From Allacma fusca (lineage: Eukaryota; Arthropoda; Collembola; Symphypleona; Sminthuridae), in the NCBI GenBank assembly GCA_947179485.1, contig OX359246.1, positions 71,203,508-71,267,507 on the forward strand: DNA of 64,000 bases, given 5' to 3'. The stretch's first letter is position 1; each line of letters begins with the position of its first letter. The notes below the pieces were generated by a model. It did no database searches, had not been told where the DNA came from, and saw only the letters and a list, made by a program, of their open reading frames with translations. This document shows positions 42,252 through 64,000 of this stretch, one piece after another. Position numbers and translations under genes: made by a program.

Positions 42252-43603
42252 ATGGATGGCGCTGGTGTAGGCAATGCCTACTTTTCTTGTGACAAGTGTG
42301 AAAAAGAGGGTACCTGGTTTGAGCGACGCGTTGTATTTCCAGAATTTAATTCTCCACTAAGATCAGATAGTAGTTTTAGATTACAGAGTCAGGAAGAGCA
42401 TCATGTTGGCATATCTCCATTGATAAATATTTCACTTGTGATGGTCAGTCAATTTGTATTGGATTATATGCATTTAGTATGTTTAGGTGCCATGAGAAAA
42501 ATGTTAAATTGCTGGGTAAAGGGTTCTCTTAAAGTTGAATTTGCAAGTAAGCCTCGTGCTCTAAGTGAAGTTGATAGATTTAAAGCTACGTAATTCAGAT
42601 CATTCTTACTTTTTTACGGCATCGTTGTTCTAAAAGACGTTCTACCAGCTAACCGGTACAAACATTACCTGTTATTTCAAGCTGCCATTTTCATGCTTGT
42701 TAGCTCTCGTGCTCATGAACCACCATTGAATACTACTGCTAAAAATGTATTTGTAGAGTTTGTTAAGCAAGCTGCACCTTTATACGGCGCAGAGTTTTTG
42801 GTGTTCAATGTACACTGTTTGTTGCATCTTGCAGATTATGCTCTTAAATTCTCAAGCCTAGATAATTTTAGTTGTTTTAGTACTGAAAATTACATGCAAA
42901 GTTTTAAAAAAATGATCAAATCTAAACGAAATTACTTGCAGCAAGTTGTGAATAGAATTTCAGAGCAAAATATGTATGAGGAGACACATCTGATGAAAAA
43001 GCAAGGGTTTGTTAAATATTCTAATAATAAAAAGCTTTTTAAAAATGGTACTCTTATAGCTACAAATGACTCGGATTCGTATTTTCTAACGAGGTCTCTG
43101 CGTGTTGTCAGAGTAATATCTTTAGACAATATAAGTGAAGGAATATTATTATGTAAGCACTTTAGCTGTTTATCGTTAGTACCAGATTATCCTATAAATC
43201 GTAAATTGTTATGTATTTACCTATGTTCACATAGTGTAATAATGTTGTAAATTTATATCAGTGTAATAAAATTGTTTACTTTATTAATTGCTAGAGTATC
43301 AATAATTTTCTTTTTTAATGCAAGCATCAATATACCAAATACAATTGGGTTTGATCCTGGCAGCCATAATGTAACAGGAAGTTTTAATAACGGCGGATTG
43401 CAGTTCATCCCCATGGTACCTACAATGGCCCAGCATTGAACCATGTATGAACGAATGGCGGGTTTTTAATGGTAACATGATGGCTAAGGCTTGGCATAAA
43501 CTTTGTCTGCCCAGCAAAGGCCCTGCGGCCAAGACGTACATTCAGCCAGCATTGGCTATTTACGTTGGCCCAGCATGGATCCTTAAAGTGGTGGTTTACT
43601 GGG

Positions 43604-45434: not shown

Positions 45435-45814
45435 TAGTGGTCGGAACGATTCAGTTCGGTCCAGGATTTTTCGATTCGATTCAGTTAGGGCACTGGACTG
45501 AACCGAAAATTGTTTTTCGGTTCGGCTCAGTGAAAAACGGTTCAGTTCGATTCGGTTACACCGATTGGACTGAATCAAATCGAAAACCGTTTGCCTTTTG
45601 CGGCTATTTAAATCTGAAGTATTCCTCATTAATTATCAAGTCTCCATTAGTGAGTTGCTACCTGCGGACTGCAGTTTCTGCGTATGTGAGTGCAAATTAT
45701 TATTTATCAGCACAGTACCATTTTCCATTGTCGTGACTCAGAAGTCAAAAAAGACTTAACCGTTTTTAATTTTCAAAAATGGACATCCCCAAGGCAACTC
45801 GTCCAAATCTGTAT

Positions 45815-47816
45815 TAGAGGTGGGATTCGGGCTTGAACTCAGGCCCAAACCCGGAAGAAACCCGAACAAATACTCTATTAGCCAGAAACGGCCCGTCAAC
45901 GGACTAAATATTTGATATTCAACCCGGCCCGTTTTATGCACCTCACATTTTGTGAAGCCCGAACCCGTTAAAAACCCGGTCTCCAAAATTTTTTGCAACC
46001 CGAACCAGCTAAAAACCCGATCTTTAAAGGGTTTTAGAACCCGATGAAAACCCGGTTTTTTAGTAACAATTGAATCCGCTGTGAAACCTTTATTTACATA
46101 TTCTATTATATTTACATATACTGTCCATCCCATCTCATCACATTCAATAAACGTTCACTCACGGAGCAAAACTTCTTATTGGATTTGAACATTTTTGAAC
46201 ATAAACTATCAAGGTTAAGGGATCGTTTCAAAATGTTTAAGCAAGTGTACGTATTAAATACAGTGAACGATTATTTAGCTTTAGCGTGAATATACATAAG
46301 AGCAATGCTTGAACTCAGCGCAACGTCAAATATGCCACCTTCCTGTCCTAAATTCAATTATAGTGGGATTGTCGGGTCATTTGTAATTTCTGGCCCGCCC
46401 GAAACCCGAACTGAAAAATAAATGCAGGCCCAAGCCCGATCATAACCCGGTTTCATTGTTTTAGTGCAGCCCGAACCCGGTCGGAACCAGTGCTCGGACT
46501 GGGTACGGGTAATACTCGGGTAAATGGGTATGGGTACTGGTATGGGTACTACCTGGGTACAGAAGTTGCGTACTCGCAAGTACGCGGGTACTACCCGGGT
46601 ACTTTGGATTTTAGAAAATGAAGTGGGTGCAGGTACGGGTACGGGTATGGGTACTCACTCAGTGACAATCGGGTAGTACCCAATAGATACGGGTATTACA
46701 ATGTAAAATACCTGTACCCATGGGTGCTGTACCCGAGTATTTTTGGGTACTTCAAGGATTTCTGCTGGGATGGATTACTATGGCTAACAATAAGACCTGC
46801 CAACCGTAGAGTTGCTTGTTTCTTTGTATACAGCTTCTAATGATTCCTCTCAGATCTAATAAAAAAATGGATAGTCAGTCAGATTGCCTGTTTATCGACT
46901 GAAAAGATGAAGTTCATCAAAGAATAATTTCATGTGGCAGGACCAATAAAGCTAATTAAATTTAATTAGCTTCATTGGAAGCGTAGCATTATAATTATTT
47001 AAAGACGCATTACGAGATAAGTTCAAAATAAATATACATTTATTAGTCTCGAGCCAGATCAGTTATTTAATGGTACAAGTACCCAGGTTTGCCCATTTGA
47101 AAACGCTGAGGTATCTTGTGTATGCAATTTTAGCATTTTAAATACTGGGCATTTATGACACTTTGAATATTTATACAATTCTGGAATGGAAAATTTTACT
47201 CACTGCAGACAATATGTATATTTCAAACAAGAAACAATTCGAGAGAACACATTTTATTTCATTCAGTAAATTATTATTTTAGCGTAGCAGCATGTGAATT
47301 TTATCAGTGCTTATTAAAAATAAATCATAAATAAACTTAAATAACTTTTTAAACAATTTGAAATAGCACCCCTTAACAACCTCTTAACGCCTAGAGTAAT
47401 TCCCAAAACCCCGGGCATTTTTTATGTGGGTCAAAAAATTAACAAATTAAGCAGTTTCAGCTGAACAGGTAAATGTCTTCTGGCATTTTCAACCGGTCAA
47501 ACTTCGAGTACCTGAGTAATACCCGGGTACAAACAATAGATACTCGAGTACGGGTACAGGTTTTGGGTACATTATGGGTACGGGTAAATTGTGGGTACAG
47601 GTACTACATTGTAGTTTCAAGTATGGGTACGGGTACTGAAATAATTTACCCGGGTACTCGGGTATGGGTACGGGTACACGGTTTCTGTACCCAGTCCGAG
47701 CACTGGTCGGAACCCGACGTAAGTTCATATTTGCAGCCCGAACCCGGCCAAAAGCCCGGCCGGGTCGGTTTTGGGCCGGCCAGAATCAAAATGCCCACTT
47801 CTGGGCCCCACCTCTA
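45815..47816. mobile_element. Middle hAT-like element (family F2)
   Basis: Ends TAGAGGTGGG and CCCCACCTCTA; 8-bp flanks ATCTGTAT/CTCTGTAT (45807-45814; 47817-47824) differ at one base. The interior is rich in AACCCGG/CCGGGTT. It is itself split by the element at 46488-47705. Confidence 0.8.
46488..47705. mobile_element. Inner hAT-like element (family F3)
   Basis: CAGTGCTCGGACTGGGTAC at both ends in inverse orientation, with a perfect 8-bp duplication GTCGGAAC (46480-46487; 47706-47713). The ends are dense in GGGTACGGGTA; the middle is AT-rich. Same family as 24839-25781. No coding capacity. Confidence 0.9.
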
Positions 47817-48590
47817 CTCTGTATATAATGTGAACTTCATAAAAAATTTCAATGCATACATAAAAATCTATGTATGCTTAATGAAATATATGTTTACGTG
47901 TTTGTACGAGTTTGACAAAGAGCGATATATATGTAAAATAATATCGGCTTAAAAAATTATTGTATTAGAATTTAGGAAAAAAATTGATTTTAGCAACAAT
48001 TCACCGATATCGATGAAAACGTGACGACGTTTAACTTAACCCCTCAAGTTACCGGAACTTAGAACGTCCGACAAATCATATTTAAAATTCCTAATTTTCA
48101 ATCGGTGTCTGAGCCGATTTTCACCGAAGTCGGTGAATAGCATTTAAAATTTATTTAAGCAAAATTTAAAGTATAAAGGCAATAATTTATGCAAATTCCG
48201 ATTGTTTTATTAAACATAAATAATAAATTTTAAGCAATAGTCTCCCTTTAATTAGTATGACAGCAATTCCAAACTTATACAGATAGGACAATAATCTCTC
48301 AAATTAATTAAGACAGACGGATGTTGTACAAATAAATGTTTGTAGTACACTCACTTCCTGTTTAAGTGTTGTGAATAGTGGGGTCAGACTTACAAATATT
48401 TGCTCCCACAAACCGTTTGGACTGCAGTCGAGGAAAAACGATTCAATTCAGTCCAACATTGTGGATTGAATCGTTCGGTTCAGTCCAATTGAGGATTGAA
48501 TCGAAAAAATCGTGAATCGAACTGAATCGGACTGAATCGAATCGAAACTTTTCGGTCCCGGACTGAAGCGGTCCGACCACTAACCTCATG

Positions 48591-48730
48591 TAAACAGCTG
48601 CCTGGCTATTCCAACGATAACGTTTTACTTTTGGAGAAAAATTCAGATATAGTCACATTTAATATTAAAGGACCGAAAGTCATGTGCAGGGGATACTGGT
48701 TACGATTAAGTCCCTCACCTGCTCTCGTTG
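48591..48730. repeat. R1, end of the unit split by the hAT nest
   Basis: GTAAACAGCTGCCTGGCTATTCC and GTCATGTGCAGGGGATACTGG match 11449-11475 and 12362-12385 of copy 1. The border with the giant retroelement lies between here and 48875 and could not be placed. Confidence 0.65.
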
Positions 48731-48874
48731 AGGGTACTCCGACCCATGTAAGGATCGTTTCTTCCTGTACGTGTACATAAATATCCTGGATGAAAATAAT
48801 TGCACTCCTTGACTGACCGCTAAACTTTGAAAATTCTGTAAAAAAAGAACCTTGTAACCGGGTAAAATGAGACA

Positions 48875-49207
48875 CTATTTATTATGTGTCTCCTTCTTGA
48901 CCTTCTTGTCCTTCTTGGCACGTTTCTTCGTGTGATGTTCACACTCCTGTTGCACAACTGGTCCATTATCGGTATTGATTACTTGTCGTACCCTTTTACA
49001 TCCTTTCCGACTACAGGTTTGGATGGGTACTGTCTCTTCCACTTCTGAATCTGAGGAAGATTCATTGGCAGTGTGTCTATCTGCTGTTGTAGTAGTATTT
49101 GATGCCGCATCCGCGCTCCATAATGTCACTGCTACTGGTGGTGGAGACTTCCACTGTCCGTTCATTTGGAGCGATTCAAACTGCACGCTGTGGCTGTGGT
49201 GGATCAA
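48875..49207 (-). CDS. ORF-F, small basic protein
   Basis: 110 codons, last ORF of the giant element. The middle is Ser/Thr/Asp-rich; then CSRKGC and, about 20 residues on, CEHH form a possible zinc site; the tail KKRAKKDKKVKK could direct nuclear import. It overlaps the end of ORF-E2 in another frame. No family recognised; may be a continuation of E2 after a frameshift. Confidence 0.45.
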   Translation of the reverse strand: MIHHSHSVQFESLQMNGQWKSPPPVAVTLWSADAASNTTTTADRHTANESSSDSEVEETVPIQTCSRKGCKRVRQVINTDNGPVVQQECEHHTKKRAKKDKKVKKETHNK

Positions 49208-50441
49208 TTCGGATCGGTATTCTTGGCGGTGGCATCTTTGTAATCGCTGTGTAGCTTTGGGCTGGAGCTGCTATGGGTGCTGTCAGTATTGACTCCCTCT
49301 CCATATGGTCTCTGTAATCTCTTGTCGGCGGTGTTGGTATTGGCGAAGGTGGTGGAGTTGATTCTCTCCTTCCTCTAGAGCGTGCTGGACTGTAATGGCG
49401 GTTTCTCGACCTGTCGTCCTCCCTTCGCTTTTTTCTCTCCGATGACGACTCTGATTCCCGCTTCCTGGTCCTGCTGTCCTTGGAGCTGTGCCTTTCATTT
49501 GAACTTTCTCCTGAGCTTCCGGGTCGCCTGTCCGAACGTTCTCCATTCGTGATGGCCCGCCCGCGGCCTCTCCCGGCTGGTACCATGTGTGCCGAGTAGG
49601 CTGCGAATCTCGGAGGTTCCCTTCGTCGGTCCTCCAAGTTTCCTCGTCTCAGATCGGGTCCATAGTTGTCATCAATACGTCTATTGATTCTGTGGACTGT
49701 ATTATTGACCTGCTCCTCTTGTTGCGGTAACCATTCACTGATCTCTGGGATGTTAACTCGGGTTACTCCACAGATGGGGTCGGCTCCAATCACTTTTCGT
49801 GAGGAACTCCGACTCGTCTTGTCCCGTTCGAACTGAAGCTCTGGAGTGAACGCCCAGGGATCATGTTCATAATCTAACCTTGGATTCCTTTTTCCTGGTA
49901 CGTCCTTTTCCTGTCTGTAATTTTGGACTAGCCATGGGTCATTGGGCTGTCTATTACGTGTTTTGCAGATGGGAATCTGTCGTCGTATTGGAGTGGGATT
50001 AAATTCTTGCCCTTTAAAAAGGTAAACAAGATCATCTGGCGCTCGCTCGCCTCTGTCAATTTCCATTTGCTGCTCTGGAAAACTTATTGACCCACAAAAG
50101 TGAGGTTCTCGTCGTAAGATACGATAATCTATTGGTAACTCCCTAGGTTTCCTGAGAGCTCCGATTAGTATTGAATGGGTAATGACTTCCCGTCCATCTC
50201 GTCCTTGGATGATAATCCGGTTGGGTAACTTCCCGTCTACTCTGAGAACAACGTCCAGTCGTCCTGTGTCTGAGTTTGGTAAAATCTTGGCCTGTGGTGG
50301 GTCAACTTCAGTTTGACTCACGTATTGGGTCCAATACCGTGGTCGATCGTCGTCGTCCCTGTCGACGGCGGGTAGGGCGTCTTGGCGCGGGGTCCCGTTA
50401 GTTCGAGACCTGGATGCACGTGATCCTCTGTTCTCTGCCAT
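49176..50441 (-). CDS. ORF-E2, 421 residues with Arg/Ser-rich C-terminal half
   Basis: Begins MAENRGSRASRSRTNG. Residues about 60-150 (VVLRVDGKLPNRIIIQGRDG, FCGSISFPEQQMEI) look folded; 290-370 is an RS/RE-rich stretch (for example RKRESESSSERKKRRED) like splicing-factor tails; the end is Pro-rich. No stop interrupts it, unlike most ORFs of this element. It sits in the position where retroelements carry env, but has no signal peptide or membrane segment, so it is not an envelope protein. RNA binding is an inference from composition. Confidence 0.55.
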   Translation of the reverse strand: MAENRGSRASRSRTNGTPRQDALPAVDRDDDDRPRYWTQYVSQTEVDPPQAKILPNSDTGRLDVVLRVDGKLPNRIIIQGRDGREVITHSILIGALRKPRELPIDYRILRREPHFCGSISFPEQQMEIDRGERAPDDLVYLFKGQEFNPTPIRRQIPICKTRNRQPNDPWLVQNYRQEKDVPGKRNPRLDYEHDPWAFTPELQFERDKTSRSSSRKVIGADPICGVTRVNIPEISEWLPQQEEQVNNTVHRINRRIDDNYGPDLRRGNLEDRRREPPRFAAYSAHMVPAGRGRGRAITNGERSDRRPGSSGESSNERHSSKDSRTRKRESESSSERKKRREDDRSRNRHYSPARSRGRRESTPPPSPIPTPPTRDYRDHMERESILTAPIAAPAQSYTAITKMPPPRIPIRIDPPQPQRAV

Positions 50442-50634
50442 CTGGCTGAAGATAAAATAAATTCCAGTAATCTGTTTTTATAATTGTGTACGTACATACG
50501 TATCGAATTCTCCTTCGACCTTGTCGTATTAGGTAACTGATGAGATTTATGCGATCACCAATTTTGAGATCAATCTCGCTTTGACCAAAACTAACACAGT
50601 TTGGTATTGTTGTCAAGTATCGGGTTGTACTCAT
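50398..50634 (-). CDS. ORF-E1, 78 residues
   Basis: Starts 4 bases past the stop of ORF-D in the same frame and overlaps the start of ORF-E2 by 44 bp in a different frame. Reads like a small folded unit (DLKIGDRINLISYLI, DYWNLFYLQPDG). Function unknown. Confidence 0.4.
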   Translation of the reverse strand: MSTTRYLTTIPNCVSFGQSEIDLKIGDRINLISYLIRQGRRRIRYVCTYTIIKTDYWNLFYLQPDGREQRITCIQVSN

Positions 50635-50640
50635 TCGTAT

Positions 50641-52008
50641 TTAGATGGATCCAAATCTTCTCGTCCTCTGACGGGTACGATTTAGGTATCGCCTGCCTTC
50701 ACAGGTTTCTTCAGCACTTCCTCCTTGAGTTGTTTCGCCTGCTTCTGTAGCTGACGGATTTCCTCCTGAACTTGTTGCAGTTCCTTTTGGATCTGTATTC
50801 TCCGGTTTGTGAGGGTCGCTGAATGATTCTGAGTGATCTGGCGTATTTCCGCTAACTCTCTCAGGCCTTCTGGAACTGTTTTTCGCGATGACATCCAATG
50901 ACCTGTCCTCTTCTGTAGAAGATTCTACAGGTGTAATAATGACTTCTGTAGGTGTATCTACAGAGTCTAATCGGTTTTCTTCCTCTGGAATTTCTTGGAG
51001 TTCTTCGTCCTCTTCTGTAGGATTTTCTACAAGGACTTTTCGTTCCGTGGGTTGTCTAAATTGTTGACTGCAGTGTTGCCTGCTCGAATCTGATTTTTCA
51101 GAAGACTCTTTAGTCTTTCGGTTTGCTCTATCTCTCTCTCCACTCGTGCTATTTGCTCTCTGAACCGACTGCCTTGCGCTTGTAGGCTTTGCAGTAATTG
51201 TCTCTGAGCTTCGCTGGGTGGGCTTGGTGTTGAGTTCCACAAAGCTGGGCTCTTCCAAGGCCTTTTGCTCATCTGAGTGAAGCAATTGTGTTGTAATATC
51301 CGCCTCTACTGTGGGCCAAGGCACCTCAACTCGTTGAGTCTTCTCTGAAGTTCCTTGATCTCCTGCTTTAACTTGTCCAGGTCCCTCTCTTTCTGTCGTA
51401 GGCGGTTGATTAATTCTCGGTTCTGGTCCCGAATTGTAAGAATTTGTCTCTCTACATTCACTGCTGTCGTCCACATCAAATTCCGGTTGATTTGTCCACG
51501 AACTACTTAATTTCTTAAGTGTTCTAAGATCACTTTCGTCAATAAGCGGTCGAGTTTCTTCCTCTTCAGATTCGGATGTTACACCTGAGCTTGTTTCAGC
51601 TGGTTTATTAAATCCAAAATATCTTCTTTGACTTTCTGAGTCTCCTGGAGGGTTGATCGATGATCCTCCTCGAGTTGCTGTAGCTTGCTCACTACTTCTT
51701 CATGTTTCGAAATCTGATGTAGTATCCTTTGTTGGAGACGAATTTCGTTCTCCTTCGCTTTGATTAATTGGGTCGGTAATCCCTCTATGATTTAGATTAA
51801 TTCCTTCTTTGTGAATGTCATCAGTTATTTGAGTTAAGCCTCGTCTTGGGATTTCTCCGCTTGTGGGCAGAAGTTGGAGTTCTAAAGCTGCTATCCTGTG
51901 TTTGATGTACTCCTCCTGGGCTATGTACTTCCAAACTTTTATCTGAACTAAATTTCACTGCTGTTTTAATACTCTTAGCTCGTCCCTGATTTCCTCTAGG
52001 GTTTTCAT
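50641..52008 (-). CDS. ORF-D region: acidic disordered frame overlapping a coiled-coil frame
   Basis: From ATG 52008 one frame has two TGA stops and is then open, including 277 codons (51474-50641) rich in Ser, Thr, Glu and Pro. In the same DNA a second frame of the same strand encodes four coiled-coil stretches: about 51776-51579 (ILHQISKHEEVVSKLQQLEE), 51476-51306 (RDLDKLKQEIKELQRRLNEL), 51272-51027 (IARVEREIEQTERLKSLLK) and 50894-50682 (LQQVQEEIRQLQKQAKQLKE), each ending in a stop and three opening with ATG. Which frame is used, or whether both are, cannot be told by eye. Confidence 0.5.
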
Positions 52009-52287
52009 TTATTTTTGAGCGAGTGAAATATGGGTAGTTTCTATCTATAAACTCCCGATTATCTGATAATTTTCTGGCGAAAATTTTCTTACTTGTGTAC
52101 TCGATTGCTTAGCCTTACCTTTCCCTACTTGTGGAATATCTTTGGGTTGATACGATTCCTGATTTGGTCTCCCTTCTTCTCCTGGGGTGATTTGAGAGTC
52201 TGAGTAATTTTTGTCACAAAATTCTCCTCTCTGCTGTACTGGTTGAGTTTGATCACTTGAACTCTTTGAGTAATTTTGTAAAGAAAA

Positions 52288-53530
52288 TTATCTAGTTCTT
52301 TCTTGGGTTTGAGCTGGTGGAACTTTAAAAGTCACCTTCTTGCTCGAGGTTGAACTGTTGTCTGAAATGGTCGAACTCTTGAGAATTGACAGTGGCTGAC
52401 TCACTATAACTTTTCCACAATTATTCCAATTTCGTTTTGTCAACAATTCCACTATATCGGAATCTGAATCATAGCTATACTCGTCCTCAATGTGTTCTCG
52501 CTGGAGGCACTTCTTAAGCCTCCCCACATGGAATTTCTGTCTCTTTTTAGAATTCCTTAGGTCTTGAATGATATAATTGTCTTTGGCTAAAACTTCTATG
52601 ACTATAAAGGGTCCTTTGTAAGGATGAAGAAAGCGTTCGCTCTTTCCAACTATCCAGGTCGGTGTAAAAACTCTCACTGTGTCTCCGACGTTAAATTTGA
52701 CTAACCTTCTCTTTCTATCATACCAATCCTTACTGTAGTCCTGACGTTCCCTTATCTTATTAATAGCTTTTTCTATTCTAGTAATGGCTTCTTCAGCACT
52801 CATTAAATTTGTGTCGACGCTGCTTAAACACAATTGTAGATTGAAATCATATATGGGTTGTCGCCTAAACATCATAAAGTATGGAGTTTCTTTGGTCACA
52901 TCATGGTGACTGCAATTGTAAGCATTTATGAGAAATGGTAAACAACTGCACCATAGTGCTTGCTCTTTTTTAGTATAATGACTCAGCATAGTGCTTATAG
53001 TCTGGACCATTCTTTCAATTTGTCCAACACTATTATGTCTAAATGCGGTAGATATAGAATGGTGCAAGCCTAATCTGCGAAGTAATGCTTGAGTAATTTC
53101 CGCTCTTCGGATCCTCCATCACTCAGCAAATTTTTGAACAGTCCGTATTTTAAAGCTACGTTGTGTAGCAAAAATTCTGCTATCCTTTCTGCAGTTTTGT
53201 CTGGAATTGCCTCTGCAATCACGAACTTTGAAACAATCCTGAGCGATTATAATGTACTTATTCCCTTTTATGCTAATTTACATGGGTCCTATGAGATCAA
53301 TACATAGTGCATCTTCTATATTTTCTATCCGGATTGGATGAAGTAATCCTGCTGGTTGCATCCGCATGGATTTAGCTGCTTGGCAACTTTCACATAACAT
53401 GACATATTTTGCTACGGAGACGTTCATTTTTCTCCAAAAATAATTTCTGTTGAGTCTATGAAGCGTTTTCTGGAATCCCAAATGTCCTCCGCATAGGATC
53501 CCATCATGAGCTTTTGATAGTAGGAGATTT
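52288..53530 (-). pseudogene. Integrase of the giant element, frameshifted
   Basis: The zinc-binding start (AHDG, GGHLGFQKTLHRL, YFW, CESCQAAK) is at about 53530-53380; ALCIDLIGPM and IIIAQD follow; LLSDGGSEE holds the second catalytic Asp in one frame, and GQIERMVQTI (53067-52288 ORF) the Glu in another. A stop at 53278 and a frameshift near 53085 break it. The C-terminal part (WYDRKRRLVKFNVGDTVRVF) is the usual SH3-like DNA-binding region, and the ORF ends with a Ser/Lys-rich tail. Confidence 0.8.
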
Positions 53531-54561
53531 CCCCTTACTTCCTATCCATGATTGTAAGATGGGACTAACAATTTTTGCGAAGTCCTTGATGTATTTTCTG
53601 TAGAAACTGCATATCCCGAAAAATCTTCGAGCTTCTGTTTCAGATTTTGGTATTGGCACATGTCTGATAGCGTCCACCTTCGCAGGATCTGGACTGGTGC
53701 CTTCCCTGGATACTTTAAATCCTAAAACAATGACTTCGAAATATACGAATTTGCATTTCTTTGGTTTGAACTTAACTTCTTGTTACTGGCTCTTAACATC
53801 AATTCTTCAAGTGATGCTAATTTGTCCAAAAGACGAATTCCGTATGAGATTACGTCATCTAGGTAGACCATGGCTCCTCTAAATTTGAGTGAACCTAGCA
53901 TCTGGTCTGTTGCTCGCTGAATAGCTGAAGGTGCGATCTTGACTCCAATAGGTAGTTGTTTGAATGCATACAGTCCATCCTGTGTAATAAACGAGGTCAT
54001 GACTTGGTCATACTCATGTATTAAAAGTTGAAAGAAACCTGACCCCATGTCAAGAGTATCGAAAATTGCAGATTTTCCGAATTGCATAAGTATGTCATCT
54101 ATTCTTGCTAAAGGATATACTTGATCTGTGATGGTCTTGTTTAACGCTCGATAATCCACAACTGATCTAAATGTTCCGTCTTTCTTTTTAATTAGGAATA
54201 GTGGGCTGCTGTAAGGTCCGTTCACCTCCTTGATAATGTCCGCATCCAACATCTTTTGTACTTCCTCTCGTACTTTTTGTCTTTCCATTGGTGAGCAAGG
54301 GAAAGATTTTGCCTGAACAGGTGGATTATTTCCCGTATGAATCCGAATGGGATCAATCCACGCTGGCTCCTTCAAATCTCCCTTGCTGAATGCGAAACAT
54401 TCTGGATATCTAGTCAACAATGCTCGGTACTTGGCTCTTCCTTCCTCATCGAGATCGTCGTTAATGTCGAAACAATCAAGTTGTTCTTGTGTGAGCCTTT
54501 TGTAAAGCATCACGTAGTTGGTTGCGTTTGATTTTAATGAGATCAAAATTCTCCTCAGCAT
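53531..54561 (-). pseudogene. Reverse transcriptase of the giant element
   Basis: FRSVVDYRALNKTITDQVYP, FDTLDMGSGFFQL, and the catalytic YLDDVISYG are present, with QLPIGVKIAPSAIQR where FGL.NAP is usual. The ORF shifts frame near 53800, then thumb motifs ARRFFGICSFYRKYI run to about 53540. The sequence then passes straight to the integrase zinc domain: RNase H and the connection are gone. Confidence 0.85.
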
Positions 54562-55255
54562 GGCCTATAGCTGTACGTCCGTACATCGTCTGTGGGCATG
54601 GTGCTGGGTTAAATACATATGCGAAAGGTTCTTCATTAGGGACTACACCTGCGGCTACTAAACGTCGCTTGATGGTGTAAAGTTTTTCTGATGGTTGTAA
54701 GTAAAACTCCTTTTTGACACCTTGTGGAATTTGAATGGGCACCTTCATGTGTCCATAGGCTGGTATTGTGACTGCTTTCCGAGTCCTGCACATCATGTTC
54801 TTTGGTCCTTTGACTTCGTGAAACGAAAAAATTGACCTGACAAACGCTGTGTCAGCCTTGTTTTCCCCGACATAGAGATGTGTATCTCTAGTCATTGGAA
54901 CTGTTTGAAATCGGTCACTCTGAATTTCATGGGTTTTGTAGTCTAACTTTATCCCATAACGTGACAAAAGATCTTCACCTATAATCATTCTAGGCTCCAG
55001 TGATTCCATCACTAGTCCTTTGAATAAAAGTTTTTCTCCTTCAATCATTGTTGTGAATTTGGTGAGACAAATTGGTTTTACCAATTCTGCATTTGCCACT
55101 GCTACTCGCAGGGTGCTTAAGACTTCTTTGATTTCCGCGCATCTTGGTACTAAGTTTCTTTGGATAAAGGATCTTGTTGCTCCTGAGTCTAGTAATGCTG
55201 GTATTATCATACTGCAAATTTGTACTTGTAAAGTTGATGTATTGCCGCTTGACAA
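54476..55255 (-). CDS. Retroviral-type aspartic protease region of the giant element
   Basis: PALLDSGATRSFI contains the D-S-G active-site triad; MIIGEDLLSRYGIKLDY is the second conserved block. It would cleave the gag-pol product. The ORF continues into the linker before reverse transcriptase and overlaps it by 86 bp. The first ORF residues differ in frame from gag, as usual for pol. Confidence 0.8.
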   Translation of the reverse strand: MSSGNTSTLQVQICSMIIPALLDSGATRSFIQRNLVPRCAEIKEVLSTLRVAVANAELVKPICLTKFTTMIEGEKLLFKGLVMESLEPRMIIGEDLLSRYGIKLDYKTHEIQSDRFQTVPMTRDTHLYVGENKADTAFVRSIFSFHEVKGPKNMMCRTRKAVTIPAYGHMKVPIQIPQGVKKEFYLQPSEKLYTIKRRLVAAGVVPNEEPFAYVFNPAPCPQTMYGRTAIGHAEENFDLIKIKRNQLRDALQKAHTRTT

Positions 55256-55359
55256 GCGACATTGATTGAGATCAATGATTTCTAATTCTTCATCATCTTA
55301 TAAATGATCTTCTACTCTGGTTGCGATTATTGCATTTATTCTATCTTGACTGTCTTCAG

Positions 55360-57516
55360 TTACTGGGGGTGCGTCCCCCTCGGGTAGTTTCCCAACGAAT
55401 ATGGGCTGGCGTGTCTCTTGTGTGGGCAATTTCTGCTTAGATGGCCCATATCCCTGCATCCGAAACATTTTATGTCGGTTCGAGCGGATTCCAGCGCAAG
55501 TTGTCCCGTTATGGGTTGAGACTGTTCCTGGCGTTCTGGCTGCGCCTTCCAGGAGTTGTTTCTGTCATTACTTTGGTTGTTCCGGTCCCTGGAGTTACTC
55601 CTACTCCTATTGTTATTGTTGTCATACTGTCGGGGTCGTTGACCTCCTTGGTTGTTGTTAGGCTGATAGACTTGGTTTTGGTAACCTTGTGGGTTGGGCT
55701 GGATTTGTTGCATACCAGGGTTGGCGTACCCTGCGTTGGATCCTGGACCGTATCCTTGTTGAGGTACGTATCATTGAGATGGTCCATACCCTTGGGTTGG
55801 TACATAACCTTGAAATGGTGCATACCCCTGTTGTGTTGGGTATCCTTGGTTTGGAATAAACCCTGGATGTTGTATGAATCCTTGGTTTTGGTTGAATCCT
55901 TGGCTGTTATAGCCGTTTTAGGGTTGGTTGTACCCTTGGTTCGTCTGTTGGTCATGCCACTGGCTGTTACCCTGGTTGTTATGGTTGTTGTTATAGTATC
56001 TGCGGTTTGGACTTTGTCTTAATCCGAAATTTTGGTTCCTCTGAGGGTAACCTTGGTTATTGGAGTTGTAGCCATCATTTCTATACTGAGGCCTGCTCCT
56101 ATCTTGGTTGTTGTAGAATCTCTCAGGTGTTGGAGATCTACCTCGATTTCCATAATTCCTTCGGTCCTCGTGACCTTGATTGTTACGTCCCCTGTCCGGG
56201 TAGTTGTTATTGTTGTTGTATCCTGGACTGAAGTTTCGTGAGTTACTGAAGTTCCCTTGACCTGGACTCCGTCCTCGTTGATCGTTTGGTCGGTTGTCGG
56301 GTCTCCGGTATTCTGGTTGTTCTCTCAAAGCTGCTACCTTCACGATAGTTGTTTCCGTTGGCGCTGCTTTCATTCCTGTGGTCAATTTCTCTAGCATTTC
56401 CTGTACCTTGACAAATCTTGTCTCAATGGATTCTGCACCATCCGTTTTTCGATCTTCATCATACTGTTTAATTCCGAGTACAAAATCTGCTACTGTTTCC
56501 GCTGCCCATCCTCGGCATAATACTTTGTATTCAGATGTTAATCCTGTACGTAAGAGTCTGATTTTCTCCAGTTCGGGCATGAATCTATCGACTCTATTGA
56601 TTAGTGCTAATTTCGCATCTATGTATGCACATGGATCTTCATCTGAGTGCATCTTTCGCTTTTCCATTAACGTACGTATCATTTGATCGGTGATTCTATA
56701 CCTTACTAGAAGTTCCTCATGCAGTCTTCGTTCTACGATCCAGTTTCTGATCCAGTCACTTACGGGTGAATCGAAGATAATCTGTACGTATTGCATCCTG
56801 GTTATGATGGTATCTTCTCCGAACCTGTTGGTTCGGAGTTCGGCTGTTGCGAAGGCTGTCTCTGGATCATCCTCACATAGCTTGAATTCTACTTTTGGAA
56901 ACATGAAGGCGGTCATGTCGTCGTCCGGGTGTCGCCTTGGGGTGATTCGTACCTGCCCTTTGTCTGCAACTTCCTCAATACGTATTCCTTGATTTTGATT
57001 AATTGGTACGTATGGGTTAAGGATGTTAACGTTGACCTGGTTGAAAAAGTTATTTCTGTTCATCTGTCTGTTTCTCCAGTTGTCGAAGGCTTCAAAGTCG
57101 TGAGGGTTGTTGGAGCTACTACTACTGAAGCTGGGTGATGAGTGAGCTACTTTTTCCGGAACTGCCGGGGTCACTCCTTGCTCTCCGTCTGCTTCCAATG
57201 TGTCGTCCTCCTCTCGAGCCTCCTCGACCTGGATTTGATCTTTGTTGAGGTGGTCGTTGATTGCGAGAGTTATTGTTGTTAGCTCCTCGTGAGTGGTTAC
57301 CTCTCCCTGACCCTCTCGGTCCTGCGCCTGGATGTCTTGGTTGATTAATTCCGATTTGACGACGTGCTCGTAAAGGTTGTCGTCTCCTTCTACCTTGAGT
57401 GAGTACGACCTGAGTTTCGGGACTAAGATCTTGAAGTCGGATTCTTGGAAAGAAGTGAGTTTCTCCTGTGTTGTCCACAAATCGGACTTCCTCTTGTATT
57501 TCTTCGTCTCTTTCAA
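55360..57516 (-). pseudogene. Gag of the giant element
   Basis: One frame, open except for TAA at 55918 and TGA at 55771. Capsid-type region about 56960-56460 (SDWIRNWIVERRLHEELL, DEDPCAYIDAKLALI), then a Asn/Arg/Gly-rich stretch, GYxPxQ-type tandem repeats (about 55905-55735) and the knuckle CFGCRDMGHLSRNC (CX2CX4HX4C). The nucleocapsid would bind element RNA. Its first 130 codons overlap ORF-C in another frame, so the true start may lie further in, near 57100. Confidence 0.8.
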
Positions 57517-57720
57517 TTGCCATGAACGCTGCGTCGTAAGCGTTGTCTATAGAAATTCTTATTGCAAATTGACCAGGTATTTCTGGAGTAATGAAATCCT
57601 CTTCGTCAATTCCAATAAAGATGTACCTCTACGTCTGCAATAGACTGTGCACTGCTGTTTTGTTCGCTCTCACGTATTGGAGTATCTCTGACTATTATCC
57701 GATCTATTACCTCTTCTTCC
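57122..57720 (-). pseudogene. ORF-C, end of the pre-gag coding region
   Basis: Follows ORF-B after two frameshifts (near 57730 and 57625). Reads EEDFITPEIPGQFAIRISID, then FVDNTGETHFFPRIRL and an Arg/Gly-rich tail (GRRRRQPLRARRQIG). The last 400 bp overlap the 5' extension of the gag frame. Function unknown; Arg/Gly-rich tails often bind RNA. Confidence 0.45.
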
Positions 57721-60695
57721 TCACTCGAAGTCACTCAAGATTTCTATGTTAGGATCGTAAATTAATCTGTTCAATGCCTCTTGGTGGTCGTGTTCGTTCT
57801 CGATGTCCTCCAAGTAGCCTGGCGGTACCCTTTGCCTGCGAATGCCGTTAGGCAAGCTGATGTGTCTATGATAGAGTCTGAAATTGGGTGCGTTGTAGCT
57901 GATGATTTGCTCTGGATCTAGAGATCTTCGTACTAGTATATTTACAAAGGTTATGGCTGGATGGTTACTCAGAACAATTTCTTTTTGTTCCGCTCTTGTT
58001 GCTGCGAAAGCTTCAAAATTGGAATTTCTTGCTGGTCTAAACCTTCGTTGAATTACACCGTCCCTTCTGTTTAAATAAATTAAACGTCTTACTTGACCTG
58101 TCCAGGTTGCTTCGTTTTCTACTCCCTGGTTCCTGAATCTATCTTGTCTTCTAGCGACCTTGGTGTATTGCCGTATTGTTAGTCTGCTTGGTACTAACTC
58201 GTTTTCTGTTGTTTCGTTTTCACTAATGTATACTAGTGTTTCTGTTCGGTATCGGGAATTCCCGAGGTTCCGGTTCGGTTTCGGTTCCGGTACTGTTTCG
58301 GGTCAACGTTTTAAAGAACCGTTACATTTCGGTCCGGTTTCGGGTCATCGGTTTATGAACCGTCAAATTTCGGTCCGGTTTCGGATACAAAAATCAAAAC
58401 CGAAAGTTGTCGGGAATGGTTTGTTAAAGCTGCCGTTTTGGATGAAAACGCGAAACTTGCATTTGATCAGCATTTGTCAACTATCATTTGAAAAGGCGAC
58501 ACAATTTTGGCTTGCATAAAAATGAATCATATACATTTTCTGTCTGTTCGGAAAGGAACCGGAACCGGTTCGGGAACCGCTTTTATTTTCCGGATCGGTT
58601 CCGGGAAGCCAAAAATGTCCCGGACTCGAAAATATCGGTTCCGGTTTTGGGAACAGAATTTTGATTTTTTTCGGTTCGGGAAAACGAGTCGGGTCGAGTC
58701 CATGTTTTGGTACCGTTTAGAAACACTAATGTATACTCTTCCGCTGGGTCCTGTCCATACATCAACTCCGTGTCGTAAATCGTCAAGCCAGCTGACTGTA
58801 CCTTGACTTGTGGTTGGAGTTGTGTTAACTCGAGATGGTCCTGCTACGGCTGAGCTTGACCTGACGGGGACCGCTGTAGCTGTCGGTGTCGTTGGTCGAG
58901 TTGCTGATCTGGTTATAAACCTTGCGGTTGGTTTGGATGGTACAGCAAAAGTCGTTGTTGGACCTGTCGTTGGTACAGGTGTTATTGTCTGTGACCTTAA
59001 TGTGTCACCTTGGACGTATGACTCGTTGCTTCTCGATGTATGCTCCGATTATGGTGGTTGTGGCTCTGTTACAAGCTTTCCACCTTCTTTGATGGACCTG
59101 TCGTTGTTGGTTGCTCGTTGCAGGATGTCTCGACCTCGTAACACGTGGCGGTGTATACCGGTACGTCCTATTGGTAGGCTGTTATATAACGAGCCTCTAG
59201 GTGATTGATAGACGGTGAATCTGTCTTGAGCTCTGAATGCTTGCTGGTAGGTACCTGTGTCTGGATTTCTGATGGTCTGTGTAATACTTGTTGATGGAGT
59301 TTGTTCTCGTAATTGTCTTGCTACCTGTACTAATATTCTTAAAGCTGCCTCACTAACGTCAAGTGGTGGTACTCGTAAAGCATGCACTGGTGGGTGTACG
59401 TAGATTCGACCTACCGGTTACTGGTAAACTTGGTGTACCTGTTGTTCGTTATTGTTTTCCTGGGTGGAATCTGTGTTGACGTACAATTTTGTTGTTACTT
59501 GGTCCTTCTTAACGTTAGCCTGTGACGCACTACCAATTTGTGTGCTCTCAGCTTCCTCGGTCGGTGTCTCCAACTCGTCCTGAATGGGTTGTGACCTAAA
59601 CTGTAGGTTAGGTTGTGTTGGTCGGTTTTTTGGCGTATTGTCTGTTGACACCTGTCTGTTCTGGCTGGCAGGTGAGAGATGTACTGGGTTGATTTGTTGT
59701 GTTATCTCGTGAGAGTTGCTGTGTTGGCTTGAATGCCCTCTTCCACCTGTTGCAGGTGCTGAGCGACAGGAATTACTGGACCTCGGGGTGACTCTTGGTT
59801 TCGCCGTAGAGTTCCCTGCTGGTGTATGATTACCTGTCTGGGTCACCGGTGATGTCGTTGGTCATCTTAGGCTACCCTTCAGGGTGACTGGTACGCAACG
59901 GGTGTTGTTGAGTCTCTCACGTATTGTTATCCCTAGTGGGCTGGTCCTGGGTTTTGAGTTGCTGTTCTTTTTAGCACTACTAACCCTGTAATGTCGTCTT
60001 ACTGATTTCTGAAAAAGTTGTGACCTTGGTGATGAGAAATCTACCTGGTAACTATCAGTCACCTGGTTACTTAATCTGAGTTGGTCAAAATTTCTGTTCC
60101 TCAGTCTCTGATGTTGTGGAGTGAATAGTCCTCCTAGGATTGCTGCTGAGACTATTGCCTGTGCGATAGCCTTATTATAAGCGGTTTAACCGTTGTCCAC
60201 ACTTTCTGGTGTAATTCTTGGCGTTATGACAGGCGGTGTTGTCGGTGTTACTATGGGCTGGTTGATGGAAAGTCTGTTGAGTTCGGTTTAATCTCTGAAA
60301 AAGGTGGTGGATACACGGGGTTCATGTCCCGCTGTATTGCCTGTGGACTCGCCTTCTCTGTTACCTGAGATGGTTCTTGATGAAAATCTGGATGCAGGTC
60401 CTAGTAAACCCGTAACCGGATCCCGTGTTACTGGTGGGTTTCTCTGGTCGTACCTGAGGTACCTGCTTATGATGTCGTCAGCGTTGGGGTCAATTACCCT
60501 TTGCTCTATTGACTCGCTGTTGTTGGAGTCTTGTTCTTGACCTGGCCTACTCTCGTCGTTGACTCGTCTTTCCTGTTGTTGGCCAAATTCTTGATTTTCA
60601 CTAAGTCTCCCGGATTTTATCACGGTGGTGTAAATGGGTGTATCGTCAAAGAAAATCTGGCTATCCTGGTGTGCCTGGTGACTTCTCAACGACAA
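57721..60695 (-). pseudogene. ORF-B, long pre-gag coding region split by a hAT-like element
   Basis: A single frame of about 820 codons continues through five in-frame stops (60288, 60186, 59862, 59418, 59049), with no frameshift, and across the element 58234-58728 once that and its 8-bp duplication are set aside. Composition is Ser/Thr/Pro/Gln/Arg-rich with more structured parts near 59390-59250 (PPLDVSEAALRILVQVARQL) and 58080-57750 (NILVRRSLDPEQIISYNAP). No family recognised. Elements with an extra ORF before gag are known in plants (Ogre type); this one is not obviously related. Confidence 0.5.
58234..58728. mobile_element. hAT-like miniature element, family F4
   Basis: 495 bp with ends TAGTGTTTCT/AGAAACACTA and a perfect 8-bp duplication ATGTATAC (58226-58233; 58729-58736). 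The interior is CGGTTCCGG/CCGGTTCGG words. It disrupts ORF-B, so it arrived after the retroelement. Confidence 0.9.
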
Positions 60696-60807
60696 TACCT
60701 GGTGCTGTAAAAGATTTCGGATGACGCCAGTTGGGATGAAAATGTTGTCCCTGACGTTCCTACCGTACTCACAAGCACGTGTACGTAGTACTTCCCTTTC
60801 TTTCCTA

Positions 60808-62508
60808 TTAGGATCTCTGCTTATTGTCCCTTCTGTGGGTGACTTCAGCTAATCTAAGGAAAAAATGTGTCCACTGAACCGTACCTGTATAAAGATTATG
60901 AGCTAACCTGTGATACACCTGTATCAGTTGTCCTTCCAATCCTCGGACTACCAGAAATTTTTCCACTTGGTTCCGTTGGAAGCCTGCCGTTGTCACTAAT
61001 TCTTGAAATGATCCAACTGGTATTGTCACATTTGCTCCTGTCACTAATTGTGCGAAATTTTCTTCCACTCTTTGGATGTTATTCTGCCCTAGTCTGATCG
61101 GTGGTAACTGATCCTCGACTGGGCCTTCCTGTTCTGTAGACTCAGACACCTGGCTGAGTGTCCTTCAAAAACTCACGTCTCCTCTGTTGGAAAAACTTGG
61201 AGATGGTCTTGATCGTAACTGGTCTCGCCAGAGCTGTTGTATATCTGGCTGTTGGAAACTTTTCGAATTTGACTGTAGCCCTTTACTTTGGTCGCTAATA
61301 CTTAAGTTTGATAACTGCTGATTTGGTTGAGTAGTGACCTGGTCACCATCACTCCCTATACTGTTATTAGTACGTGGCACTCCTGTTGGTGAGTCACCTT
61401 GTTCACTGTGTTCGGTTGACTCGTCCGATTGTGTTATTGCTAAATTGTCTCTAAATGATGAGTGTGCACTGAGATTCCTTTGCTGGATAATCTCGGGTGT
61501 GCTTGTTGCTATAGCTGTTGGTCGGTTGGAATCCTCCAGGTCATCCATTTCCGTTGAGCTTTGCTGATTGATCTGTTCTGCTGTTTGTCCAGTAGCATTG
61601 CTGCACATTCCTCTGTCCTGCTGACTTTGTACATCCTGTTGAGATTGTACGCCCGTGTCTTGAGGAATGTCTCCGTTGTCAACTGTGTTTGTCAAGTTGC
61701 TGACAACCACATTGTTGGGTGATTCATGAGTCACGTCCTCCGTTTCACTTTCTGGAGTCGCAAAGCCTTGTTCTTCCGTACTCGTGTGATTACTTCCAGG
61801 ATCCGTGATGATTTCGAATGATGACGTGTCTGCACTGCTTACTGGTCTTTGCTCAAGTTGATTGAATTGCGACAACATTTCCCTGATCGTGGGGTCAGCA
61901 TCGTGACTGACAAAAACCATGTCTCCTCTAGCAATTAGCATGAGTTCACCTATGGCTTCAACCTCCTGGTCTTGCTGGACCTGTTGGTCCTCCAGGTTGG
62001 TTACCTCGAGGTCGCGTAATTCTCCTTGCATAGCTAGTCTATGGAGATTCTGTCCTTGCGCCACCTTTGTTTTAGAAAACTTTGGTGTTTGCGCAGTCGA
62101 TACTGTTGGTGTTCGTCTAGGACTGGTTGCCGTACCTGTTATAGGTGTTGACACCGTGTCCAAGAACACGTCCGTGCTTTCATCGTTAATGTCAAAATTA
62201 TCCCCTTGTCCCGTGGCCCGCGAGCCCGATGGACTATGTGCAGATAATGCCAGGGTTGTACTGCCGGATTCTTCCATGACTGTAGATGTTGATGCTGAAG
62301 ACGTTGAAGAGAGGTCAACACCTGCCGTTGCTGTATTAGCTTTGGCTTTTGCTGCCTTCCTCTCCTCTTTCCTACGGGCGAGGATCTCCTCCAAGCCTGT
62401 CTCATTCTGTGGTACTGGTCCTGCCGATCGCGTAGTCCTTCGAGATGGTGTTGAAGGTGCAGGTGATGGTTCCCTTTTTGCTAGATGTTGGTTCTTTTCG
62501 GGTTCCAT
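60808..62508 (-). pseudogene. ORF-A, first ORF of the giant element
   Basis: 447 codons to a TGA at 61165, then the same frame stays open to 60808 (113 codons from 61149). The N-terminus (RREEERKAAKAKANT-like) is Lys/Arg/Ala-rich; the rest is Ser/Thr/Gln/Asp-rich with no predicted membrane segment, strongly suggesting disorder; the second part looks folded (NIQRVEENFAQLVTGANVTI, then VYHRLAHNLYTGTVQWTHFF). No family recognised. ATG 62508 is the first in the frame. Confidence 0.5.
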
Positions 62509-64000
62509 ACATGTAAACGTCCTAACGTTTACTGGATGGGCTGAAAAATGCTAAGGCGTTTCTTAGAGTTTGGTTTTATGAATTTGTTTGACGGTTGTGA
62601 GAGTTATGCCAAATGAAACTTAAACAGTTTTCAAAAATTTTGCCTTGTATGGCTATTCTTGTGTAAACCTAGTTGTTAATCTTAATTGCCAATTGTGAAG
62701 TTAACTTTGAAAAGAAATTTCGTTGCCCAAAACCTAAGTGTTCGATTCCTGAACGTCTCTAACTTTTCACTGTGACTGTCTTAAACTTAACTGTTTTTAA
62801 TCTTAAACTTTTGACTCCTTGTATCTAATTTCTTCCTATTGTTACCTCCTGAACTCTTTTCTAATCTTAATTCCTTTTGTAACCTATTCCTTCTTAATTT
62901 TAACCTTCCTTAAAACCTACTGTCCTAAAACTTACTTCCCATAAAACTTTATTCTCCCTAAACTTAATCTCCTTAAAACCTAATCCTCTTAAAACTTAAT
63001 GTCCTTACAACTTACTCATCTGAAAACTTAATTCTCTTAAATTTACTTATCTGCAATGGCTAGTTGCGTTTAACTCCTTAAATTAATCAGGCTTATTGTC
63101 AATCAACACTCCTCACATTCGGGCCGGTGTTGCCTAAATTTCCCTAAATACTCCTGTAATAATTCTCTCAAAATTGATAAGGACTGTATTACTCGATACT
63201 AGTTACCCTTCTCCCAGATGGATAAGTTTCGCGTCCTAATTCGTACCTAAGAACTTCCTTGAACCGATCCTACCATCAGCAAGGCTTGTATCTTGCGTAG
63301 ACAATAAAAACTGAACGCACCAGAACTTATTGAATTCCTATCCCTTTTACCAACTCTCAAATTACCAAAGCCATGAGCCTGTGGTTTCTTATGCCAATTC
63401 TCTCTACACTAGCAAAATCCTTCGAGAATGGCTAACTTATGATGCACCCAAAACCATGAGTCATCTAAAGAAGAAGCAATAAATATGAAAGTCCATATGT
63501 ATGGCCATAGCTGGAAACCGCATACATAGATTTTAAAGTGAACATCCCTCCCATGGCATGTCCTCTGTTATCCTATCCAAAACCATGGACCTCCTTACTG
63601 GTAATAGTCATTGCTGTTACCTATCCGCTAGCTCGGGCACATTACAAACATATACCTATATCGGTGCGTCAGTCATAGCCTCTCCGATTACCTCTAGTAG
63701 GCAACAGGCTTATCGGTACTTTTGTCGGCACTCCATCCGATTACCTCCGTGCTTGGAATGACTCGAACCCTACTATGCCATAAGGTCCCTCCTTATCTTC
63801 CTAGCCTCTCGGATTCTACGTGTATTATAAACCTATATACGACAATGATTGCGCTCATATTTCGGCCTTTCAATTCCTAAATTACGTAGATGGAAATTTT
63901 CTTATATGTATGCTTATGTGCTAAACCAATATGCCCATGCTCAATATACCTCGGCCCTTTGGACTAAATTTTGTCAAACCTTAATTAACATTTCTTAATC
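62509..64000 (-). other. Leader of the giant element
   Basis: No ORF of note. 62740-63060 is low-complexity: about fifteen irregular units of CTTAAAACTTAAT type. No primer binding site or LTR border could be fixed, so part of this may already be LTR. Confidence 0.45.
62740..63060. repeat. CCTTAAAACTTAAT irregular tandem repeat
   Basis: Units of about 18-21 bp such as CTCCTTAAAACCTAATCCTC follow each other imperfectly just upstream of ORF-A on the minus strand. Confidence 0.7.

Follow-up and report, generated by a model that had tools for sequence, protein, structure and literature searches.

The window analysed here is a 64-kb stretch of chromosome 2 of the springtail Allacma fusca (C8:71203508-71267507), and we read it as holding a dead copy, comprising the 5' two thirds, of a giant retroelement of the Ty3/gypsy type. 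Taken together with its sister copies, it is very probably part of a giant Ty3/gypsy-type long terminal repeat (LTR) retroelement that carries a conserved set of extra genes. The element belongs to a known kind, because it has the gypsy order of domains and LTRs; its gene set and an array of dual-coded coiled-coil genes match nothing in the searches made. The initial annotation of the window had described a giant gypsy-type element with additional open reading frames (ORFs) on both sides of gag-pol, and this description is confirmed by the length of the frames, by a Pfam core and by recurrence in other copies. The longest minus-strand frames in positions 48001-63000 comprise 542, 461, 433, and 352 codons, compared with at most 243 in 200 first-order resamplings, and long minus-strand frames are present on either side of gag-pol. 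A Pfam scan of 10 window frames found protease, reverse transcriptase (RT), zinc knuckle, and integrase C-terminus, all of them mid-element, and gave no match above cut-off in the flanking ORFs. No Rfam family or tRNA was detected in the window.

The window copy and its decay

The copy spans positions 48890..64000 of the window on the minus strand. Its 5' end lies beyond the window, at position 66118 (L009:5118), with the LTR starting directly behind ATAT (read as ATAT/TGTTACG). A search for LTRs beyond the window had been proposed, and LTRs were found: in addition to this 5' start, sister copies have LTR pairs with a spacing of about 28.2 kb. The sister pieces L031, L032, and L033 align with the window copy in collinear blocks at 83-90% DNA identity, with one tandem-repeat block at 74%. 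At a deletion junction (window 53525-53531; L032 2425 adjoins L032 4878), about 2.45 kb are absent with respect to the sister copy, and this deletion took RNase H, the insert between RNase H and integrase, and the integrase start. The match to the sister copy ends at 48890, inside ORF3, and the 3' third is gone. A comparison of positions 44001-52000 with 60001-71000 detected no LTR pair, because the 3' end of the copy is lost. The ORF1 stretch appears as two broken rows in the genome search and contains an insertion:

58235..58729, no strand given: foreign insert in ORF1, 495 bp, carrying a short terminal inverted repeat; the target duplication is 8 bp long (TGTATACT)

By the usual criteria we take this insert to be probably a hAT-type miniature inverted-repeat transposable element. 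Imperfect tandem repeats were seen in the leader before ORF1 (L031 ~3400-3640, window 62907-63053).

The complete element and its copies in the genome

The anatomy was read piecewise from six sister copies, three each from subfamilies F2 and F1, between which 50-63% of the residues are identical across the five pieces compared. The complete element is about 28.7 kb long and has the order LTR, ORF1, ORF2, coiled-coil ORFs over the ORF2 tail, E1, ORF3, ORF4, LTR. The LTR start TGTTACG after ATAT was read in L031, L034, L037, and the window copy, and 22 of 40 LTR matches reach into the TAT preceding the LTR. The LTR measures at least 497 bp and about 0.5-0.6 kb; its end is bracketed by ranking inference only, between L031 836 and ~950.

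Copies were collected as best-scored lists, which favour well-kept copies: 95 of 302 candidates for E2 (a part of ORF3), 150 of 214 for ORF4, 150 of 191 for ORF1, and 89 of 2,193 for RT. The 89 best RT loci are 98-100% identical at the protein level, and 67 of them lie in open frames of at least 2,390 codons. ORF1 is found upstream in 87 of the 89, ORF4 downstream in 83, and both in 81, so that the extra ORFs, on whose presence in other copies the initial annotation had made its case depend, do recur. Starting from the F2-type E2 rows used, ORF4 stands at the expected distance in 66 of 68 and a listed RT is present in 62 of 68; for the F2-like ORF1 places, ORF4 follows within 8-27 kb in 108 of 120. 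An LTR search with a 300-bp query gave 15 pairs among the best 40 of 273 candidates, with a spacing of 28.1-28.3 kb in 10 cases, 25.9-27.0 kb in four, and 3.6 kb in one.

One might suppose that the flanking ORFs are neighbouring unrelated elements or host genes beside an ordinary gypsy copy, as the frames of the window copy are broken, foreign DNA has been inserted into it, and other transposon-like ORFs lie nearby. However, the same order and spacing are found genome-wide, both around the best RT loci and in 10 of the 15 LTR pairs. An unrelated origin is refuted by this co-occurrence across copies, and we consider it next to impossible.

The element has been amplified recently in A. fusca, and many copies are largely unbroken. 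In one copy, comparison of the two LTRs over 297 and 200 bases showed no difference, and 17 same-copy LTR pairs have equal scores among the matches listed; the latter suggests near-identical LTRs, though worse partners would drop off such a list. In the F2-like subfamily, ORF1 was located at no fewer than 120 places. If each of these loci were 28.7 kb long, they would make up about 0.9% of the 392.7-Mb genome; this is an upper reading, as some are partial, yet the count of loci is a lower bound. Mean ratios of nonsynonymous to synonymous substitution rates (dN/dS) for five close pairs were 0.10-0.16 in ORF1, 0.16-0.32 in ORF2, 0.06-0.13 in the first and 0.09-0.14 in the second piece of ORF3 (0.06-0.14 for both pieces together), and 0.11-0.32 in ORF4. 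Thus, the proposed purifying selection on the extra ORFs is borne out by means of 0.06-0.32 for ORF1, ORF3, and ORF4. In single 250-codon stretches, dN/dS reached 0.47 in ORF1, 0.62 in the ORF2 insert, and more than 1 over much of the ORF2 tail, the last because of the overlap with the coiled-coil ORFs, as expected. The LTR pair spaced by 3.6 kb belongs to a short form on the minus strand (G000:C12:12605006-12609063) that encloses part of ORF4 and may be a non-autonomous derivative formed by deletion.

ORF1 and ORF2

The initial annotation had placed three ORFs (A, B, and C) before gag. Coding sequence does exist there, but the units were not retained: A, B, C, and gag are fragments of one ORF1 of about 2,200 amino acids (aa), which is open in L031. 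Its typical length is 2,202 aa in F2 and 2,261 aa in F1. It consists of a long, partly low-complexity N-terminal part, which extends Gag by about 1,500 aa, followed by Gag with a zinc knuckle at the end. In the window, its remains are:

61168..62550, minus strand: ORF-A, the N-terminal part of ORF1 (MEPEKNQH...), mostly low-complexity; same start as in the open ORF1 of L031
57125..61164, minus strand: ORF-B/C, the broken middle of ORF1, matching in the same order a single open ORF1 of L031
60811-61164, 60291-60848, 59865-60185, 59421-59861, minus strand: frames of ORF-B/C
59052-59417, 58530-59048, 57724-58302, 57125-57628, minus strand: further frames of ORF-B/C
55921..57546, minus strand: Gag part of ORF1; Retrotrans_gag match weak, below cut-off, in the sister copy only
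55363..55770, minus strand: zinc knuckle at the ORF1 C-terminus (PF00098, 21.3 bits, cut-off 20.8)

Two of the ORF-B/C frames extend into the 495-bp insert.

ORF2 encodes Pol. Its 2,417 aa comprise protease, RT, RNase H (to residue 764), a 674-aa insert, integrase (from residue 1439), and a long tail. Pfam found protease, RT, RNase H, and integrase in this order in L032:548-7798, the integrase core lying just under its cut-off (32.2 versus 32.6 bits); no match to the chromodomain PF00385 was detected by Pfam in ORF2. A short motif of the type [DE]FS.E.Y is repeated in the ORF2 tail (L041, L032), about four times in F1. The window copy retains:

54479..55297, minus strand: aspartyl protease at the ORF2 start (PF00077, E 1.3e-07)
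53725..54564, minus strand: reverse transcriptase of ORF2 (PF00078, E 1.6e-15)
52291..53541, minus strand: integrase remnant, with an H2C2 piece (53281-53541) and a core remnant plus C-terminus (52291-53118; PF22938, E 1.7e-06)
50644..52287, minus strand: ORF-D region, the C-terminal tail of ORF2, dual-coding with coiled-coil ORFs

The reading frame of ORF2 is shifted by -1 relative to ORF1, whose end it overlaps. All three F2 copies have a slippery heptamer, G GGA AAC, in the right phase and 7 nt before a 5-bp GGGGG/CCCCC hairpin.

Coiled-coil ORFs overlapping the ORF2 tail

After integrase, the initial annotation had listed ORF-D with coiled coils, E1, E2, and F. The coding character of this region is upheld and its division is not: D is the tail of ORF2 together with the coiled-coil ORFs, and E2 and F form the beginning of ORF3. 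In the +1 frame over the ORF2 tail, F2 has five and F1 six separate ORFs, each 56-100 aa long when counted from ATG. All of their start codons but one follow an in-frame stop by no more than about 33 nt; the exception is cc1 of F1, whose ATG lies deep within a longer open frame. The coiled coils ascribed to D appear to reside in these small ORFs, as judged by a heptad score, an ad hoc test that gave z values from 1.3 to 5.8. The following parts are visible in the window:

51582..51791, minus strand: remnant of cc2, frame +1 relative to ORF2; its sequence resembles sister cc2
51030..51305, minus strand: cc5 (MSKRxWxSP...), frame +1 relative to ORF2
50685..50924, minus strand: cc6, frame +1 relative to ORF2
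50401..50640, minus strand: E1, a small separate ORF; in sister copies 96-108 aa, with an ATG that overlaps the cc6 stop

In order to compare the two frames, nonsynonymous and synonymous changes inside the coiled-coil ORFs were counted in each of them. The pair L032/L035 has 27:37 changes in the +1 frame and 51:12 in the ORF2 frame; for F1b/F1c, the values are 32:52 and 73:12. The other F2 pairs gave 27:37 versus 51:11 (L032/L038) and 13:13 versus 17:8 (L035/L038); the three F2 pairs are non-independent, and only L032/L035 was put to the frame test. This Fisher comparison contrasts two readings of the same changes and is descriptive only. Two gaps between the coiled-coil ORFs have 26:2 changes in the +1 frame and 18:18 in the ORF2 frame (the three non-independent F2 pairs summed). 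The sums exclude the F1 stretch 5670-6341 (18:14 in the +1 frame, 25:6 in that of ORF2), as its upstream part is not a coiled-coil ORF. Hence, in the coiled-coil ORFs the conserved frame is mostly the +1 frame and not that of ORF2.

A plus-strand scan for ORFs of at least 60 aa resulted in 39 rows, namely 11 main ORFs, 9 coiled-coil ORFs, 2 E1, and 17 others that served as controls. The ratio pN/pS was 0.04-0.41 for the coiled-coil ORFs and 0.09 and 0.27 for E1. Among the 17 controls, 15 had a value of at least 0.77 or no synonymous change, one had 0.49 with stops, and one 0.42; none of these alternative-frame ORFs was both stop-free and below 0.42.

Could the +1-frame ORFs be an artefact, the codon bias of the Pol tail leaving an alternative frame open by chance? 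The coding strand is A-rich and of low complexity, the ORFs are short, and the heptad test is weak for some of them: equally good shuffles occurred in 25 of 300 cases for cc2 of F2 and in 31 of 300 for cc1 of F1. For the last coiled-coil ORF, the pair L035/L038 is even reversed (+1 frame 8:0, ORF2 frame 3:5), and the pN/pS value of this ORF in F2, 0.41, is adjacent to the lowest control. In contrast, the summed counts favour the +1 frame inside the small ORFs in both independent pairs, the gaps go the opposite way, and starts and heptad patterns recur across the subfamilies, which are only 33-44% identical there. We therefore regard a chance origin as very improbable and genuine dual coding as the preferred interpretation.

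The stop of the last coiled-coil ORF and the start of E1 share the sequence ATGA in all six copies, with the ORF2 stop 9 nt upstream. Under a strict test, the ATGA overlap was found in 18 of the 20 loci L011-L030, of which L014, L015, and L017 (F1) are already among the six. The two that failed are L011, which has the same ATGA with a start off the strict motif, and L019, where the junction is changed. The ATG of ORF3 sits within E1.

ORF3 and ORF4

The open frame of ORF3 comprises 2,207 aa in F2 and 2,341 aa in F1. Only its beginning is present in the window:

49179..50477, minus strand: E2, the N-terminal part of ORF3, with a conserved start and an RS (arginine/serine)/basic tail; relatives P0001-P0003; best 95 of 302 genome places
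48890..49270, minus strand: F, the continuation of ORF3, with a conserved C-x4-C...CEHH cluster; ends at 48890

Two features proposed for these segments were recognized, the RS-type tail of E2 and, in F, a Cys/His cluster that corresponds to the possible zinc site. Complete copies continue for about 1,700 residues past the end of the window copy. Following F, ORF3 contains a signal-like segment, a Gly/Ala-rich hydrophobic segment, a later hydrophobic segment, and a well-conserved C-terminal part; three sites of the type R-x-[KR]-R and N-glycosylation motifs are common to F1 and F2. ORF4 has about 246 aa from ATG. A signal-like N-terminus and an ectodomain of about 150 residues, with no MG start, precede a transmembrane segment that lies around residue 182 of the open frame and after which a tyrosine and a basic patch follow in both subfamilies (ILYRIRMQKKK and ILYRIKSMRKR). 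The earlier statement that no env-like ORF or membrane segment is present is correct for the truncated window copy only; complete copies are predicted to encode hydrophobic segments in ORF3 and a transmembrane segment in ORF4.

These features would fit a giant errantivirus-like endogenous retrovirus in which the ORF3 middle and ORF4 constitute a very divergent envelope, whereas the RS and Cys/His part is an RNA export factor similar to Rev or CERV. The internal signal-like segment, the hydrophobic segments, the three shared multibasic sites and the glycosylation motifs of ORF3 favour an envelope, as does the type I-like arrangement of ORF4. On the other hand, no Pfam match above cut-off was obtained in the ORF3 and ORF4 pieces scanned, where weak matches below cut-off lie over the ORF4 membrane region. 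PDB sequence searches with ORF3 parts revealed no relative, the ORF3 middle matching only eIF3J at E 0.16, judged to be chance, and the ORF3 middle has few cysteines. AlphaFold2 gave no confident fold for two ORF3 parts (mean pLDDT 28.8 and 45.9), which is why any reading as a membrane module rests on hydropathy and motifs. We consider such an envelope possible but rather unlikely.

Alternatively, an envelope-free element might spread from cell to cell by means of ORF4, acting like the sORF2/FAST-like transmembrane proteins of the Drosophila MDG1 group (PMC11952523, a preprint). In both subfamilies, the single strong transmembrane segment of ORF4 is directly followed by the tyrosine and basic patch, features that are named in that preprint. 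However, the sORF2-like proteins have 63-107 aa and ectodomains of some 30 residues, many of them with a myristoylation motif; ORF4 differs in its length, its signal-like N-terminus, its larger ectodomain, and its lack of an MG start. This alternative therefore appears unlikely.

Relatives and known systems

Database searches with E2, the Pol core, and most of ORF3 detected relatives outside Allacma for the Pol enzyme parts only. E2 has three public relatives, all from Allacma (7,931 candidates), one of which, P0001, occurs in the genome at 100% identity. The ORF2 core has 66 (5,408 candidates); among the 30 of these 66 that are listed, alignments cover Pol enzyme parts, and none of the 30 has an aligned piece in ORF2 residues 913-1356. 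The Pol core is at most 40% identical to public gypsy-type Pol proteins. For residues 340-1755 of ORF3 (L033 piece), no public protein relative was found among 7,975 candidates, to which length limits apply, and none of 102 pattern matches of the ORF3 C-terminal part to viral contigs was confirmed. In a 64-row RT tree, computed without a retrovirus or caulimovirus outgroup, with unsettled bootstrap and no row from loci L001-L008, the lineage forms one 100/100 clade with a long stem (1.43) and an unresolved base. It falls outside a 21-row group that contains 12 of the 15 chromodomain rows.

With Ty3/gypsy elements (Metaviridae), the Allacma element shares the order protease, RT, RNase H, integrase, a zinc-knuckle Gag, an LTR starting with TG, and two LTRs around the coding region. 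It differs in its length of about 28.7 kb, the Gag extension, the insert between RNase H and integrase, the dual-coded coiled coils, an ORF3 of 2,200 aa, and its isolated RT branch. The chromodomain at the integrase C-terminus that marks chromoviruses is without match here, and a recognizable F-like env, as in errantiviruses, was not found by Pfam in ORF3 pieces and ORF4 or by the PDB search with the ORF3 middle.

Plant Ogre elements have an extra ORF upstream of gag. They are large gypsy-type elements whose LTRs measure 1.9-6.5 kb and which encode one or two additional ORFs without known function (PMC6431247). The likeness lies in the size and the extra ORFs; in contrast, the size of Ogre owes much to its LTRs, whereas here the LTRs are short and the sequence before Gag forms a single ORF with it. 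The nearest giant comparison found is Burro of planarians, with an internal region of up to 25 kb and more than 30 kb including LTRs, huge polyproteins, accessory ORFs, and a possible membrane-fusion part, all of which have a counterpart here. Burro also has MATH/TRAF, BIR, ankyrin, and BCL2-like parts, the majority of which are encoded by an ORF1 of 4,873 aa (PMC6431247). These parts are absent from the five pieces scanned with Pfam here, and the Allacma layout consists of three giant ORFs plus small ORFs.

The MDG1-group elements resemble the Allacma element in having accessory ORFs (sORF1/sORF2) outside gag-pol and a transmembrane protein with a tyrosine and basic patch after the membrane segment; they differ in that sORF2 is a short protein, in most cases encoded before gag, and ORF4 a longer one encoded at the end of the element. 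Cer1 of C. elegans encodes CERV, a novel extra protein that is required to export its own RNA (PMC10309623); it offers a possible parallel to the RS/basic part of ORF3, whose role is a proposed one. Bdelloid LTR elements have captured unusual third ORFs, including small transmembrane ORFs (PMC5408684). The third ORFs named there are recognizable enzymes or a paramyxovirus-like env, whereas ORF3 of Allacma is without recognized relative. Troyka, an unusual gypsy-like animal lineage, has 5'-CG...CG-3' termini (PMC12440569), and the Allacma LTR starts with TGTTACG instead. No arthropod element with such a layout was found in searches of the open-licence PMC literature, a scope that does not include Repbase and most subscription journals. 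The main texts of the A. fusca genome paper (PMC10427803) and of PMC9630974 do not mention transposons or repeats.

Proposed expression and roles of the extra proteins

A single LTR-driven genomic RNA would be translated to Gag and, via a probable -1 frameshift at G GGA AAC, to Gag-Pol (ORF2), whose integrase would insert the element at ATAT-type sites. The coiled-coil proteins and E1 would be made from downstream cistrons, E1 and perhaps the coiled-coil ORFs too by stop/start coupling, which for E1 would occur at the shared ATGA. The RS/basic, Cys/His N-terminal part of ORF3 might handle or export the very long RNA, the hydrophobic ORF3 middle and ORF4 might together serve as a membrane module in budding or in passage from cell to cell, and the coiled coils might build an oversized particle or an RNA scaffold. 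Taken singly, each of these roles, deduced from sequence features, is rather doubtful; the general idea of RNA-handling or scaffold proteins is plausible for the ORF3 N-terminal part and the coiled-coil proteins.

The fullest reading, which we put forward tentatively and with less than even confidence, is a virus-like retroelement of 28.7 kb and about ten genes, with recent activity in a springtail host that eliminates the paternal genome. It would combine two 2,200-aa proteins mostly of obscure ancestry, viral-style packing, an intercellular membrane module of its own, and an overprinted Pol tail with five to six separately started coiled-coil genes and a stop/start-coupled small gene. Several observations weigh against our main interpretation of the element and its expression, in addition to the deviating last coiled-coil ORF and the lack of a confident fold and of cysteines in ORF3. 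In the sole F1 copy readable at the frameshift site, the heptamer is inexact (G GAA AAC), although the hairpin is kept; the hairpin stretch is unexceptional compared with shuffles (z -0.73 and -0.81); and in one of the six copies, ORF2 is interrupted by an additional stop codon. A scan for splice sites revealed no strong shared acceptors; upstream of ORF1, the F2 copies may have a donor in common. The ORF4 ectodomain has neither an N-glycosylation motif nor a shared cysteine.

The element widens the gene content known for gypsy-type elements. Its many recent copies provide material on the export, packaging, and translation of so long an RNA, and the functions of the dual-coded coiled-coil genes and the large orphan proteins can be tested singly.

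Other elements in the window

Further transposon-like sequences lie nearby, as judged by eye from the ORF list in the first case:

12947-16013, minus strand: second gypsy-like element in pieces, integrase-like at 12947-13981 and RT/RNase H-like at 14301-15435
18374-21325, plus strand: possible transposon-like ORFs, broken by a 341-bp tandem duplication at 20135-20802
33551-35503, plus strand: ORF of 650 aa ('...FNFENYMQ...'), transposase-like in appearance
42693-43250, plus strand: shorter, related-looking ORF ('...FSTENYMQ...'), likewise transposase-like in appearance

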